From assembly GCF_000237825.1 (NCBI RefSeq), contig NZ_CM001377.1:1550001-1614000 (forward strand): a stretch of DNA of 64,000 nt, in the 5' to 3' direction. The notes below the pieces were generated by a model. It was not told the origin of the DNA. It did no database searches and saw only the letters and a program-made list of their open reading frames with translations. The position numbers and the translations under genes are program-made. Position 1 is the stretch's first letter; every line of letters begins with the position of its first letter. The stretch comes from Thermanaerovibrio velox DSM 12556. GTDB lineage: Bacteria; Synergistota; Synergistia; Synergistales; Synergistaceae. Shown in pieces: positions 57,339-64,000 of the stretch.

Positions 57339-58633
57339 TGTCCGATCCACGCCCGCGCGCGGCGGGCGACGTTGAACAGTATTATGTCACGAGTAAGACG
57401 ACAGTTTCAATCCACGCCCGCGCGCGGCGGGCGACATCCATCTCATGCTGGAAGTAGTTGGCTATCGCCTTGTTTCAATCCACGCCCGCGCGCGGCGGGC
57501 GACTTCTTTACCAATGTCCAGCGTTGGAGGGGTAGCTGTTTCAATCCACGCCCGCGCGCGGCGGGCGACAGGCCCAGGTGTCCGGGGAGGCCATAGTGTC
57601 CGGGTTTCAATCCACGCCCGCGCGCGGCGGGCGACGGGCACTGGTGGTGGGCCTAGAGCAGTTTTTGAGCGGTTTCAATCCACGCCCGCGCGCGGCGGGC
57701 GACTGCCAAAACCCTCAAAAATCGGCAGATTGCACTACGTTTCAATCCACGCCCGCGCGCGGCGGGCGACGTGCCCACCACCAGTGCCCACCAAAGGTGT
57801 ACGGGTTTCAATCCACGCCCGCGCGCGGCGGGCGACGGAAGCTGGAGACTACATCCACTATAGGAGGAGGAGTTTCAATCCACGCCCGCGCGCGGCGGGC
57901 GACTCTGGCGTTGGCGTGCTATAACCGGATCACGACCGGTTTCAATCCACGCCCGCGCGCGGCGGGCGACCCCCTTCATTAGATGACTTAAAGGCGTATA
58001 TCAAGCTGTTTCAATCCACGCCCGCGCGCGGCGGGCGACCGGCGTATTGATGCGAATCGCACGATAACTATCGCGTTTCAATCCACGCCCGCGCGCGGCG
58101 GGCGACCAGATTCCCCTCGGCCTGACGCTATGCGTTTTAGGGTTTCAATCCACGCCCGCGCGCGGCGGGCGACGTAAACGTTGCAGGGGACTTTAGGGCG
58201 CTGATTTGTTTCAATCCACGCCCGCGCGCGGCGGGCGACTGGTGGTGGCATGCTATAACCAGGTCACGATCTGGGTTTCAATCCACGCCCGCGCGCGGCG
58301 GGCGACCCCAAGTGGGCCCTGGTGGTGGCCCAAAAAGAAGTTTCAATCCACGCCCGCGCGCGGCGGGCGACAAACTGCAGAATTCCCATAGCTTGAAGGT
58401 TTTCGGTTTCAATCCACGCCCGCGCGCGGCGGGCGACATGCCACCACCAGGCTGTCAATAGAGGCACCGCGTTTCAATCCACGCCCGCGCGCGGCGGGCG
58501 ACCTGGTGGTGGGCACTGGTGGTGGCCCAAAAAGAGTTTCAATCCACGCCCGCGCGCGGCGGGCGACGGATCACGGCCGGAAAGGAGGAGATACGCATGG
58601 CGTTTCAATCCACGCCCGCGCGCGGCGGGCGAC
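57339..58633 (-). CRISPR. Type I-C CRISPR array, 20 repeats and 19 spacers
   Basis: A 32-base repeat, read on the plus strand as GTTTCAATCC...GGCGGGCGAC, occurs 20 times. Nineteen copies are identical in sequence; the copy at 57339-57370 is degenerate in its first bases. Repeat starts: 57339, 57404, 57472, 57538, 57604, 57672, 57739, 57805, 57872, 57939, 58008, 58075, 58142, 58208, 58275, 58340, 58406, 58471, 58536, 58602. Spacers are 33-37 bases. The canonical type I-C orientation (GTCGC...ATTGAAAC) is on the minus strand, so transcription and newest spacers lie at the 58633 end next to cas2, and the degenerate repeat marks the old end. Several spacers share sequence (see findings). Confidence 0.98.
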
Positions 58634-58822
58634 GGTTACCACATCAAACCCTGCAACCACCTGGCTTTAGACAGGCCTTTTCGCGAACCCCTCATGAGAG
58701 ACCCCGTTTCGAGCAAGTCCACTACACCCATCCCTACCTAAACCCTTGGGGCTGAACAATTATACCACTTCGCGAACCCCCCAGGTTTTCATGAGCGCTT
58801 CTGGTCCGCGCGGATGATCGCC
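58634..58822 (-). promoter_or_regulatory. CRISPR leader
   Basis: About 190 bases between cas2 and the newest repeat. A minus-strand TATAAT at 58759-58764 could drive array transcription. Two direct copies of TTCGCGAACCCC (plus strand, 58680-58691 and 58769-58780), each followed shortly by CATGAG, lie about 89 bases apart and may be integration or regulation motifs. Confidence 0.6.
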
Positions 58823-59113
58823 TCAAATCACTAGGGGGCCTTCTGGGTCGTACGACGCCTTTGCCCCCTGGTGCTCAACCCGATTCTTCCACTTTGCGCC
58901 AAGGAAGTAGAACCTCAGGCTATCCTTCTCAGGGTCATAAACCTCTAAAAGTTGATGCCGCAAACTCGTCCATTGGGCAGGATCAACAAGGCATTCGAAC
59001 ACCGAATTCTGTACCCTCTGTCCATAGTTCTGGCATATCTTAGCCACCTGTCTCAAACGCCTGGCGCCCCCTTCGGAGGCCGTATTTACATCATAGGTCA
59101 CCAAAACCATCAT
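58823..59113 (-). CDS. cas2: Cas2
   Basis: A 96-residue ferredoxin-fold protein, part of the Cas1-Cas2 spacer integrase. The start MMVLVTYDVNTASEGGARRLRQVAKICQNYGQRVQNSVFECLVDPAQW is typical. ATG 59113 lies 12 bases into an open frame that also contains GTG 59125; the Cas2 N-terminus supports the ATG. Overlap or near-contact with cas1 indicates one operon. Confidence 0.95.
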   Translation of the reverse strand: MMVLVTYDVNTASEGGARRLRQVAKICQNYGQRVQNSVFECLVDPAQWTSLRHQLLEVYDPEKDSLRFYFLGAKWKNRVEHQGAKASYDPEGPLVI

Positions 59114-59125
59114 GAACTCCCACAC

Positions 59126-60154
59126 CTACTTCCAGCGAAATGGCGGATACGCATCCAGATCTCCCCGCAAGTGACGAGCGAGAAGAAGGGCTTGAACGTA
59201 TGGGATCAAACCTATGGGAATCTTCTCCCCAATAAAAGGATGTATTATCTCTTCCCGTTTCCTCTCCTGATAGGCCACCAGTACCTCCTTCCGCGTTTTG
59301 TCATCCATCAACACAGCCCCAGATTCTGTCCTCGTGAAACCGCTGCCTTTAACCTGCCGCCTGTTCACCAGGGATAAAGCCAAGCGGTCCGCTATAAAGG
59401 GCCTCAGCTCCTCCATGATGTCCAGCGCAAGGCTGGGCCTTCCTGGACGCACCGCGTGCAGATAACCCACGGCGGGATCGAGACCAACCGATTCCAGGGC
59501 CGAAGAAGTATCGTGAACCAAAAGAGTGTACAAAAACGATAGAAGGGCATTCATCGAATCCATTGGCGGCCGCCTACTCCTCTCGCGGAAGAAGAAATCA
59601 TCCTTCTGCGCACAGATAAAGGCATCAAAAACCGAAAAATAGATCCGGGCCGCCTCCCCTTCAACTCCCCTCAAGGTATCCAAATCAACAACCGATTCAA
59701 TCAAACGCAGGATCCCCGCCAGCCGGCTCGCCGCAAAAGAAAACCCCTCCGAACCACCGGACTTGTTCTCCCTTGCAGCCCGCAAAAGAGCCGTACGGCT
59801 GTTCACAATCTTCCCTATCACCATCGACCGGGCAATCAAAAGACTCTTGCCTGGATCATCTGCACGCCTGTATTGCTCCCTCCGCAAAAGGACATTCCCC
59901 GAGACTGGCCCATGCACCCGGGCAAGGAACCTGCCGCTTTCCGTCATGAAGGACAGGGTAATCCCCCGCTCCCCGCACAACCCCATCAGAAAGGGACTAC
60001 ATGAAACCTGACCAAAGCAAACGATTCCACACAGGGTATGGATCGGCACCCGGACCTTCGTCTCCTCCCCCACCCGCACGAGAACTGTTTCACCATCACG
60101 GGAAAGGTAAGATCCCTGGGTTAACACGTAAAGGGTGTTTAACAGGTGTTTCAT
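59126..60154 (-). CDS. cas1: Cas1 (type I-C)
   Basis: A 342-residue integrase nuclease. N-terminal LNTLYVLTQGSYLSRDGETVLV, catalytic Glu in LRGVEGEAARIYFSVFD, His in VGYLHAVRPGRPSLALDIMEELRPFIAD with the following acidic residues, and the C-terminal tail of the I-C subfamily. ATG 60154 overlaps the cas4 stop (ATGA). Confidence 0.96.
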   Translation of the reverse strand: MKHLLNTLYVLTQGSYLSRDGETVLVRVGEETKVRVPIHTLCGIVCFGQVSCSPFLMGLCGERGITLSFMTESGRFLARVHGPVSGNVLLRREQYRRADDPGKSLLIARSMVIGKIVNSRTALLRAARENKSGGSEGFSFAASRLAGILRLIESVVDLDTLRGVEGEAARIYFSVFDAFICAQKDDFFFRERSRRPPMDSMNALLSFLYTLLVHDTSSALESVGLDPAVGYLHAVRPGRPSLALDIMEELRPFIADRLALSLVNRRQVKGSGFTRTESGAVLMDDKTRKEVLVAYQERKREEIIHPFIGEKIPIGLIPYVQALLLARHLRGDLDAYPPFRWK

Positions 60155-60819
60155 AGCCCATCTCCCCCTTCAGCCAGGTCCTCCGCAAGTGATGAGCGGA
60201 TCAAGGAGTTGATATATCTTTGGGCACTCCTACCTCCCCGACTCATTTCAGGCAAGCAAACATCCCGCAAGGAACATAGCTCGCAACGCCTCCCACACAC
60301 GGCAGACGGGGTAACTGCGGCTTCGGTAAGATCATGCAGCCTTAAAGAGAGACGCTCGGTTCTTGCCCTAAGTGCCTCCGTCAGCTCCACCACATGACGC
60401 CGACGGGGCTTCCCATAAAAAAATTCAGCCTCCTCAATATGTAAGCCCGTCATCTCCTCAAGACACATCGCCTGGGCACAAAGCTGGACTTCGTCACAAT
60501 CAACAGCCTTAGGTTTACCGCTCTTATACTCAACTATCTTCGGCGGGCGACCAGCCAGACCGCCTGCCGGGAACTCTACCACATCCGCCTGACCCACAAG
60601 ACCGAGCCGGAAAGAATGAAGCCGGAGGGCTCTAACAATCCTAACATCCCCCCGGCTTTCACCATCCTCCTTGTGGGCCTTCTCGTGCAAAAACTTACCC
60701 TCCAAGGTTAGCACGTTCTCGCGCCACACCTGCTCCAAATAGATAAGCCCCCACTGCCTTTCACAAAAGGCCAGGTGCTGAAGCGCAGAGATCGGAAGAA
60801 GGTCCTCTTCGCTGTACAT
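60151..60819 (-). CDS. cas4: Cas4
   Basis: A 222-residue iron-sulfur nuclease that trims prespacers. The first cluster cysteine is in LQHLAFCERQWGLIYLEQ; RecB-like motifs are LHEKAH, GQADVVEF and PKIVEYKSGKPKAVDCDEVQLCAQAMCLEE; the last three cysteines are in CGRRCELCSLRDVC. Fourteen bases separate it from cas7. Confidence 0.95.
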   Translation of the reverse strand: MYSEEDLLPISALQHLAFCERQWGLIYLEQVWRENVLTLEGKFLHEKAHKEDGESRGDVRIVRALRLHSFRLGLVGQADVVEFPAGGLAGRPPKIVEYKSGKPKAVDCDEVQLCAQAMCLEEMTGLHIEEAEFFYGKPRRRHVVELTEALRARTERLSLRLHDLTEAAVTPSAVCGRRCELCSLRDVCLPEMSRGGRSAQRYINSLIRSSLAEDLAEGGDGL

Positions 60820-60832
60820 CTACCCTTCCACG

Positions 60833-61693
60833 TTATTTCACTGATACGAAATTCAAGGGACTCGTTATCGGGTTCCCGTCCAGGAACAACGCATAATCAG
60901 AAAAACTTCTCGCCGGTCCCTCTGTGGTCCTCTCCCACGTCACCCGCTCAAAAAGCTCGTGAGCCGGCTTGTTACCCAGAGCGGTCTCGTGTTCGAAAAC
61001 GATCAGCGCACGGGCGCTCATCAACCCCCGGGCAGCCGAACGATCGTGTTCGAACATAACCTGCAACGCCTCCCAAAAAAGGTCCAAGTCATCCTTGGAA
61101 AAACCAGTTTGTGCGGCAAGGTGGGCAGATACAAAACCATACGCCCTGTAAAGCCCGTAAGGAACCGTGTATTTACGACCCATCGTGCGGTTACCGCCAC
61201 TTTGTTCCTTCGCCTCGGCTTCCGTCGCAACCGCCATGCGGGTGATGCTGTGCTCAAGCGCCACTATCGGCTCCAGGGAACGGGCAAAGGTCAGCTGTAT
61301 GGGACCACGAACCTGCCCCGCATTCTTACCGGTGCTCATAACCGCACCGAAAGCACGCACATCGTAATATTTCCTGCACATCCAGTTTCTCGCCGCTTCA
61401 ACCATTTCGCCCTCCGTCTTTCTGGCTTTAACTTCTTCTTGTTCACGAGCTTCATCTATAAAATTATTAAGAACCGCCTTTTCTTTGACAAAAATACCGT
61501 ATCCCGGCCCTTCGTTTCTCGTAATATAAACATAGTTGCGAACTTTTCTTTTTATGCAGACATCCGTAACAAGGCCAATGCCAGTTTCAGCATCAATCCT
61601 AGGCATGTTAGCTGCATCAGGATCTCCATTTGGGTTACCATCCACAACATCAAAGAAATAAACAAAATCATACCTTCTGTCAACGCAGCTCAT
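60833..61693 (-). CDS. cas7: Cas7c (Csd2), Cascade backbone protein
   Basis: A 286-residue crRNA-binding backbone subunit of type I-C Cascade. The family N-terminus [33 protein letters not shown] is clear, followed by [41 protein letters not shown] and [25 protein letters not shown]. It is A+T-rich compared with the main chromosome. Three bases separate it from cas8c. Confidence 0.96.
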
Positions 61694-61696
61694 AAC

Positions 61697-63451
61697 CTAT
61701 TCCCCCTTATTTTTATTGTAAAAAGCTTGCATTTGGTGGTAATATCCAACAGCGAAATGCGCTTGCTGATCTAAGCTCATGGTCGACGGCATTGTCGCAA
61801 TACCATCCATAATTTCTCCTATTTCCTTCTCCAGATTTACCTTTCTGCCAGGGTTAGTCAATTTTGCCATATGGTAATTTTTTAATTTAAGAAGCTGAGG
61901 GAAAACCACCACGGGCATAGATGAAGCAGCTCCGTAATAACGATCCCGAATGGTAGCGTTTATTCCAGGGTTAGCCTCCTCCTGAATCTTTTCAAGAACC
62001 GCGAAAAGCCGTCCGAGCCGATAGGCCACATTTGGATTGGATCGATCTAGGGACACCTTCAAAACCTCCTTCTCCCTCGAATTGGCCTGCTGACGATTGA
62101 TGCATGCTTTTAAGATCCCCGCCCGCTCCCTGGTCACCTTCCTTTCAGCCCTAATCCGCCTTATACACTGCTGCAACAGCGACCTGGGGTAAGGCGTTCC
62201 ATCCAAGATGCTCGCTAAAACTGCCCCAGGTAAATTCGGAGGGACATTATCCATCGTGTAATCCAACGCAGTTGCCTTAAGAAGACGGCTCAACGGCAGA
62301 TGCTCTTTTTCGTTCGGACCATGGATAATCTGAACATCCTCAAAATGTTTGATAATCTTATCGGCGAAATCCCTCGCCTTCCCAGATCTCCATAAACGGA
62401 CGGAAATCCGCCCCGCGTTGGGGGAAAGCCCCAAGACGTAAAAACGGTCCTGTTCCGTGGCCGGGATCCTACCCGAAAACACCGATTCGTAAAGCGCCTT
62501 CACCGCAGCAACCGATCGGTCAGGATCATCCTTTGGGTCCTCCCCAACTAACCAACTGAAGCTTTGCTCAAGGTTGCAATAGGCCGGATCCTCCTTCTGT
62601 GCCCAAAACACAATGGTAGTTTCCCCAAGGTTCGTTTTGTTTTTAGATGCGGGATCAAGCAAGAGGTTCAGCGCCCTAGTATAGGCTAATGCAGCCCTTA
62701 CGCTCACCGGAGCATTAAACCCCTGCTGCTTGAGAAAAGACGCAAATGCAGGCGTAGGACCACCATTCCTACCGTTTTCAACCTTGTTGTTGACAGAAAC
62801 CAGACTCGCACCAGTTGAGTTAGCCCCCTTTACCCCTAGAATAGGGGGATGTAACTGCTTAATAGGAGCCTTCTCACCGGTGACAAGGCAGATACCCTCT
62901 GGGAGCCCCTTTTCATCAACAACCTGGGCCTTTCTAATCTCTGGCAGATCCGTAATAACCCCCAAACCCTCTATTTTGAAGGTCATCAGAGATTCAGGCT
63001 TTTTAAGATCATCCCAAACCGAACTCTTAGAAAGCTCATCCAGCAAATTCTTGCTAAATACATTGAGCACATTTTTTGCTGGCTCACCAATCTTTTCTTT
63101 TTCAAAAAAGCTTTTCATTCTCTCAATAAATGCTTGATGTTGCTTTTTTACCCTTTCAGGCTTGCTGTTCTCTTTGGTTGGAACACCCAGAAAATACTCA
63201 GCATTCTCCCAAAAGAGGTTTGCCTTAATCGCACTCCCCTTGGACTCACCCAGAGAAGGTACCAGGAATTTCTTGGCAACCAACTTCTTCCCCGACAACT
63301 CCCTAGTATCTTCAACACGGATAAAGTTGCCCTCGGTGTCCACCACAATCAAAAAATGGATCCCCTTCCACTCCCAACCCTCAGGTGGAACTTTCCTTTC
63401 CGGATCAGCAAGGCTGCGCTCATAGTATTCACAAAGCGCCTGCAGGATCAT
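61697..63451 (-). CDS. cas8c: Cas8c (Csd1), large subunit of type I-C Cascade
   Basis: A 584-residue protein with Csd1 features: MILQALCEYYERSLADPERKVPPEGWE, FIRVEDTRELSGKKL, AYCNLEQSFSWLVGED, FYVLGLSPNAGRISVRLW, GTPYPRSLLQQCIRRIRAER and the C-terminal RDRYYGAASSMPVVVFPQLL and AHFAVGYYHQMQAFYN. The C-terminal part also encodes the internal Cas11-like small subunit in this family. Marked A+T bias (23 G/C in the 60 bases from 63121). ATG 63451 overlaps the cas5 stop. Confidence 0.95.
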   Translation of the reverse strand: MILQALCEYYERSLADPERKVPPEGWEWKGIHFLIVVDTEGNFIRVEDTRELSGKKLVAKKFLVPSLGESKGSAIKANLFWENAEYFLGVPTKENSKPERVKKQHQAFIERMKSFFEKEKIGEPAKNVLNVFSKNLLDELSKSSVWDDLKKPESLMTFKIEGLGVITDLPEIRKAQVVDEKGLPEGICLVTGEKAPIKQLHPPILGVKGANSTGASLVSVNNKVENGRNGGPTPAFASFLKQQGFNAPVSVRAALAYTRALNLLLDPASKNKTNLGETTIVFWAQKEDPAYCNLEQSFSWLVGEDPKDDPDRSVAAVKALYESVFSGRIPATEQDRFYVLGLSPNAGRISVRLWRSGKARDFADKIIKHFEDVQIIHGPNEKEHLPLSRLLKATALDYTMDNVPPNLPGAVLASILDGTPYPRSLLQQCIRRIRAERKVTRERAGILKACINRQQANSREKEVLKVSLDRSNPNVAYRLGRLFAVLEKIQEEANPGINATIRDRYYGAASSMPVVVFPQLLKLKNYHMAKLTNPGRKVNLEKEIGEIMDGIATMPSTMSLDQQAHFAVGYYHQMQAFYNKNKGE

Positions 63452-64000
63452 CTTCTCACCTCATCACTATCCCAATCAGGAACGTTAACCACTCCCCTGT
63501 CAAGCCTAGCCCTGAAAAACGCCGGAGTCGGGTTCGCCGGGTCGGAAAAATCTATGTCGTAAAGCATGAACCCAAGATCCCGGGTTTCATCGATAGGCTT
63601 TGGTCCACTGTCATGGTCCTCAACAAGCCTAAAGTGTGCACTAAATTCGCGGCAACCCAGGTAAGGCCGGTTGAAACACTGCCCCTTAAGCGCCCTCCTC
63701 CTGAACATGGCGTTGTACTTCCCGGGATTTTCATCCCCACCCAGCTCCACGGATTCCACCGCATCAATCAACGCTTCTGGCGTCTTCAAAAAACCAGTCT
63801 TCCTTTGCGACGGCGGAATGAACTCCAACTCTGCGTGAAGCCTATAGCGAACGTCCTTCAGAAAAACCCCCGCCCGCTGCTGCCTTTTGTCCTCAACAAA
63901 AAAACCGTTACTCCGCTCCGTCATGACACAACTCACTTCGTTCCGACGAACCGACACCCAGCGAATAGGGTTGAGAACCTCTATCTTTCTCACCCTCCAT
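63448..64000 (-). CDS. cas5: Cas5c (Cas5d), 5' part off window
   Basis: The C-terminal about 184 residues of the type I-C Cas5, the pre-crRNA-processing endonuclease of this subtype. KIEVLNPIRWVSVRRNEVS is the family signature, followed by QRAGVFLKDVRYRLHAELEF, KYNAMFRRRALKGQCFNRPYLGCREFSAHF and FMLYDIDFSDPANPTPAFFRARL. The frame is open to the right edge, so the N-terminus and probably cas3 are beyond it. A GTG at 63993 could be read as a start but the protein would lack its N-terminal third. Confidence 0.93.
   Translation of the reverse strand, partial: WRVRKIEVLNPIRWVSVRRNEVSCVMTERSNGFFVEDKRQQRAGVFLKDVRYRLHAELEFIPPSQRKTGFLKTPEALIDAVESVELGGDENPGKYNAMFRRRALKGQCFNRPYLGCREFSAHFRLVEDHDSGPKPIDETRDLGFMLYDIDFSDPANPTPAFFRARLDRGVVNVPDWDSDEVRR

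Follow-up and report, generated by a model that had tools for sequence, protein, structure and literature searches.

Why do several spacers of a single CRISPR array in Thermanaerovibrio velox DSM 12556 resemble one another? The array belongs to a type I-C CRISPR-Cas locus in the window, by which we mean the whole 64,000-nucleotide stretch analysed here, corresponding to positions 1,550,001-1,614,000 of a genome that forms a single contig of 1,880,838 bp. The strain (Z-9701) grows at 60 °C, and one CRISPR is annotated in its genome (PMC3910556). Assignment to type I-C rests on a 32-nt repeat with the 3' end ATTGAAAC in crRNA sense, spacers of 33-37 nt (all 19), the position of the array next to cas2, and an operon cas3-cas5c-cas8c-cas7-cas4-cas1-cas2 for which gene order and models agree, with cas3 present as two ORFs (frameshift). 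Apart from cas3, these genes lie in or extend into the window at the high-coordinate side of the array, on the minus strand, where they match type I-C or general cas models:

57339..58633, minus strand: type I-C CRISPR array, 20 repeats and 19 spacers; repeat 32 nt, crRNA sense GTCGCCCGCCGCGCGCGGGCGTGGATTGAAAC
57371-57403, minus strand: spacer S19, numbered from the leader
58634..58822, minus strand: putative leader region, array to cas2, placed by its position between the first repeat and cas2
58823..59125, minus strand: cas2 (TIGR01573, E 9.5e-20)
59126..60154, minus strand: cas1, type I-C (TIGR03640, E 4.2e-152)
60151..60819, minus strand: cas4 (TIGR00372, E 7.5e-32)
60833..61693, minus strand: cas7/csd2 (TIGR02589, E 9.6e-116)
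61697..63451, minus strand: cas8c/csd1 (TIGR01863, E 8.8e-165)
63448..64000, minus strand: cas5c, running past the window end (TIGR01876, E 4.9e-74 on L090:949-1665; PF09704)

Both the array and the cas genes are oriented on the minus strand, the leader side faces cas2, and a degenerate terminal repeat (57339-57370) marks the low end of the array; the spacers are accordingly numbered from the leader, from S01 (newest) to S19. The related spacers fall into two clusters. Cluster A, comprising S02, S05, S13 and S15, is statistically solid; in cluster B this holds for S06 and S11, and S03 and S01 are probably also members:

58503..58535, minus strand: spacer S02, cluster A; 20 nt in common with S05, 19 nt with S13
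58307..58339, minus strand: spacer S05, cluster A; 26/27 core bases identical to S02 (score 25)
57771..57804, minus strand: spacer S13, cluster A, on the strand opposite to the other A members; 19 nt in common with the reverse complement of S02, 17 nt with S15
57636..57671, minus strand: spacer S15, cluster A; 15 nt in common with S02, 17 nt with the reverse complement of S13
58240..58274, minus strand: spacer S06, cluster B; 26/33 identical to S11
57904..57938, minus strand: spacer S11, cluster B; 26/33 identical to S06
58438..58470, minus strand: spacer S03, probable member of cluster B, opposite strand; 12/12 end overlap with S06, weak alone
58568..58601, minus strand: spacer S01, newest, at the leader side, probable member of cluster B; shares 11/12 bases with the end of S11 and then reads GAA, as expected of the S11 PAM

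Within cluster A, the 20-base CTGGTGGTGGCCCAAAAAGA is common to S05 and S02, TGGTGGGCACTGGTGGTGG to S02 and the reverse complement of S13, and GGGCACTGGTGGTGG to S02 and S15, with overlap identities of 69-89%. Since all four members contradict each other in sequence, cluster A samples at least four diverged source variants. The likeness between S06 and S11 in cluster B (79%) spans 33 bases and continues past the CTGGTGGTGG run. The 12-base end overlap TGGTGGTGGCAT that links the reverse complement of S03 to S06, which a preliminary description of this DNA had pointed out, is exact but weak alone, scores of at least 12 arising in many random sets, and the same caution applies to S01, a spacer absent from that description: taken singly, S03 and S01 reach scores of 12-13 that also occur in a fair share of random sets. 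The members of cluster B likewise conflict in sequence, so that, if S01 is counted, this cluster would sample at least three diverged source variants. Like S13 in cluster A, S03 sits on the strand opposite to the rest of its own cluster. The coordinates given in the preliminary description are all correct, its shared strings are exact and its identity of 26/33 between S06 and S11 was reproduced. Of the two reading frames it proposed, the one for the second family (LVVACYNQVT) holds, frame 0 (LVVACYNQVTIWE / LALACYNRITTG) being clearly best, with conservative changes and no stop, whereas the one for the first (LVVGTGGGP) is not settled, as the GTGGGP and WALVV frames of cluster A fit about equally well.

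Exact strings of at least 10 nt, on either strand, are shared by 14 of the 171 spacer pairs, whereas 100 dinucleotide-preserving shuffles gave 0.4 such pairs on average and never more than 2. As a stricter control, we drew, from elsewhere in the window, 150 sets of 19 TTC-adjacent protospacers matched in length to the spacers, so that codon bias was kept. Nine pairs score at least 12 in the array, compared with at most six in the random host sets, and the linked cluster reaches a size of seven, compared with at most four. The earlier proposal that the same coding sites were sampled repeatedly, on both strands and from diverged homologues, is supported, the robust members conflicting with each other such that several variants are needed. 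Six of the 19 spacers, probably eight, probably derive from one or two tiny coding stretches in related, differing invaders. If all eight are counted, five of the newest six spacers are cluster members (p 0.02); for the six robust members alone, clustering at the recent end is not significant (p 0.26).

The canonical type I-C PAM is TTC (PMC8482600), with GAA found downstream of the protospacer (PMC5071653). S01 covers the end of the S11 protospacer, and the next three bases in S01 are GAA, corresponding to TTC on the crRNA-like strand. The TTC PAM that the preliminary description had suggested looking for beside each match can thus be read at this one internal position of cluster B, but no full protospacer was found at which to read it. 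Aligned to S01, S11 retains its PAM and has one seed mismatch. Aligned to the source of S06, it meets CCC where its PAM should be and is mismatched at positions 1 and 3 of the seed, S06 using a TTC two bases further out than the S11 PAM position (a flank that assumes for S06 a TTC PAM of its own). Faced with targets altered in this way, a type I system fails to clear them yet primes new acquisition. Older spacers partly match newer sources, themselves known only through the spacers, in three comparisons: S11 with S06 (26/33), S11 with S01 (11/12) and S05 with S02 (26/27 of the core).

We hypothesise that spacers were taken repeatedly from two short coding sites, A and B, of related, diverged mobile elements. 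The older spacers S15, S13 and S11 would no longer have matched later variants well, the PAM and PAM-proximal bases having changed; partial recognition by Cascade-Cas3 would then have primed Cas4-Cas1-Cas2, and the new overlapping spacers S06, S05, S03, S02 and S01 would have been taken from nearby TTC PAMs on either strand. That the array reflects repeated encounters with such elements and gained its overlapping spacers by primed adaptation has, in our judgement, about an even chance of being correct. Primed adaptation against related invaders, as previously suggested, remains the best reading, but the mobile-element sources, the order of events and the priming itself are what we infer from the spacers, and none of the collections searched yielded a protospacer. 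Priming usually acquires spacers over hundreds to thousands of bases, and because it spreads so widely it does not by itself explain matches confined to some 50-80 bases.

The priming reading is also weakened by the fact that the source sequence was not found in the collections searched. The concatenated spacers have no match in 50,697 phages or in 72,556 plasmids, and this negative is real, since a 34-base lambda sequence planted as a control was picked up in the same BLAST format. Among 188 Synergistota genomes there is no protospacer, the only matches outside T. velox being two weak ones, a 20-nt piece in lon and 27 bases at 89%. Searching IMG/VR and GTDB contigs for the targeted DNA or for back-translated patterns gave nothing convincing; the composite peptides match no PHROG and only one sub-threshold Pfam model, and tblastn against phages found nothing. 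The comparison of spacers and peptides with phages and plasmids by BLASTN and TBLASTN, which the preliminary description had recommended, accordingly recovered no source.

Naive, unprimed acquisition from returning related invaders could also have produced the clusters, provided that the sites are conserved or prone to acquisition and that the spacers were kept by selection as broadly protective. It accommodates the sampling of different variants, PAM positions and both strands within the same short region, and it has no need for Cas3, which is frameshifted in the record. However, older spacers lying on altered versions of newer targets are precisely the trigger for priming, and under uniform sampling of a 10-40 kb element six spacers could not come to lie within about 82 bases (union bound 5e-5 to 6e-8, with A and B taken as one site). 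Uniform sampling being too improbable, this explanation must add a hot spot or strong selection, and we consider it rather unlikely.

Improbable, in turn, is a single invader in which a repeat or a paralogous gene is present in numerous diverged copies, the spacers of each cluster then coming from different copies within one element. Such an element would explain why one short site occurs in many variants with no need for a hot spot, and in one frame the peptides of cluster A are rich in Gly. Against it, nothing of the kind was found in the collections searched, the overlaps between the pieces do not assemble them into a tandem array, and the two clusters would each need such copies.

A still more doubtful possibility is that A and B are one and the same site, some 80 bases long and located in a conserved gene of the invader, from which spacers would have been taken eight times and from six or more variants. 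The CTG GTG GTG register recurs in all eight spacers, and of the six frames only frame 0 stays open throughout. If true, acquisition would have a site-specific hot spot much narrower than the known gradients of priming. Once the decamer common to both clusters is set aside, A and B spacers agree at about the chance level (15-30% identity), and the two clusters were kept separate.

Coincidence of GC-rich codon runs (CTG GTG GTG or GGT GGT GGC) is very improbable. The decamer CTGGTGGTGG is common in the genome, with 84 sites of which seven lie inside the array, and look-alikes of 18-20 nt turn up in unrelated genes. Two of these were considered as sources and set aside as chance: a soil virus ORF (GSGGGPKR), with a 20-nt match and no further similarity, and lon of Synergistota genome G173, a 20-nt match in a host gene. 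At the genomic rate of about one per 22 kb, however, the decamer is far too rare for seven copies in the 650 nt of all spacers, where about 0.03 would be expected. The likeness of S06 and S11 extends over 33 bases, beyond the codon run, and the random TTC-adjacent host protospacers described above never gave a cluster larger than four or nine linked pairs. As a Chi-like site the decamer was rejected, its 84 genomic sites comparing with 51 for the reversed control, without special enrichment. Finally, derivation of the spacers from host genes is barely credible: nothing favours it at the DNA level, the translation of S02 and S05 in one frame resembling LVVAQKD, a motif of Lon that T. velox Lon also contains, while the complete T. 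velox genome holds, outside the array, only chance pieces of 15-19 nt and no protospacer, so that self-targeting is excluded for the deposited genome, and low-complexity host repeats, the other finding that the preliminary description had named as contrary to its reading, do not match either.

Returning to primed adaptation, the closest known case is that of Legionella pneumophila, whose type I-C arrays target the element LME-1 and include two spacer pairs on overlapping target stretches, the older spacer imperfect and the newer one perfect, an arrangement interpreted by the authors as possible natural priming (PMC5071653). The same system primes strongly in experiments, a PAM-less protospacer triggering the acquisition of many new spacers from the same molecule, most of them at GAA PAM sites (PMC5071653). 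The T. velox array shares with the LME-1 arrays the subtype and, to judge by the one internal reading, the GAA/TTC PAM; it also probably directs several spacers at a recurrent element, an older imperfect spacer overlapping a newer perfect one. It differs in that the Legionella element was recovered and immunity tested, whereas the T. velox sources are known only through the spacers, and in that more spacers overlap per site (four in A, two to four in B), from more diverged variants. With the priming experiments it shares the subtype, but those used a laboratory plasmid of known source, in contrast to a natural array. Resampling is a behaviour already known in the same CRISPR type, of which the T. 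velox array is a strong natural instance. Under the priming reading, the array would be a natural record of immune memory updated against diverging relatives of one invader as related viruses or plasmids came back, and one from Synergistota, a phylum with poor sampling of its phages. Recovery of the source elements would provide old and new spacers in order on one site, and such an ordered series would allow I-C priming to be tested at 20-30% divergence, together with the distance of new spacers from the old target.

Whether DSM 12556 could prime today depends on cas3, which lies just past the window end (L090:1693-3991; G000:C1:1614192-1616490) as two overlapping ORFs of 448 and 333 aa. The frameshift occurs at a run of seven C (genome positions 1615151-1615157), with the HD and DEAD domains in L090:2645-3991 and the C-terminal part of the helicase in the other frame, in L090:1693-2694. 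The break may be a homopolymer sequencing error, a pseudogene or a phase-variable tract. As priming needs Cas3 and the deposited gene is split, it is doubtful that the strain still primes today, unless the frameshift is a sequencing error. If the break is real, interference and priming would now be off and the array a frozen record.

Several peptide resemblances were noted in passing. A P27 small terminase was rejected as the cluster B gene, there being no PHROG match, only a sub-threshold Pfam model and no similar segment in 18 Synergistota P27 terminases. A phage structural protein of IMGVR_UViG_2517572151_000001 (L087:645-690) carries ANVACYNRITAGQDGW, which resembles ACYNRITAGK, the composite of S11 and S01; as a source, this prophage tail protein (VACYNRITAG) was discarded, having been found by a pattern for that very peptide and having flanks that differ from S01. 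In Synergistota genome G158 (contig C59; L029:1490-2100), the first spacer of an I-C array encodes CLACHNRKTA, which resembles the cluster B peptide LACYNRITT; part of this match is the repeat itself, and it may be due to chance. Spacer S10 (57971-58007) encodes PSLDDLKAYIKL in one open frame, a translation that presumably recalls the N-terminus of phage head-tail connector proteins.
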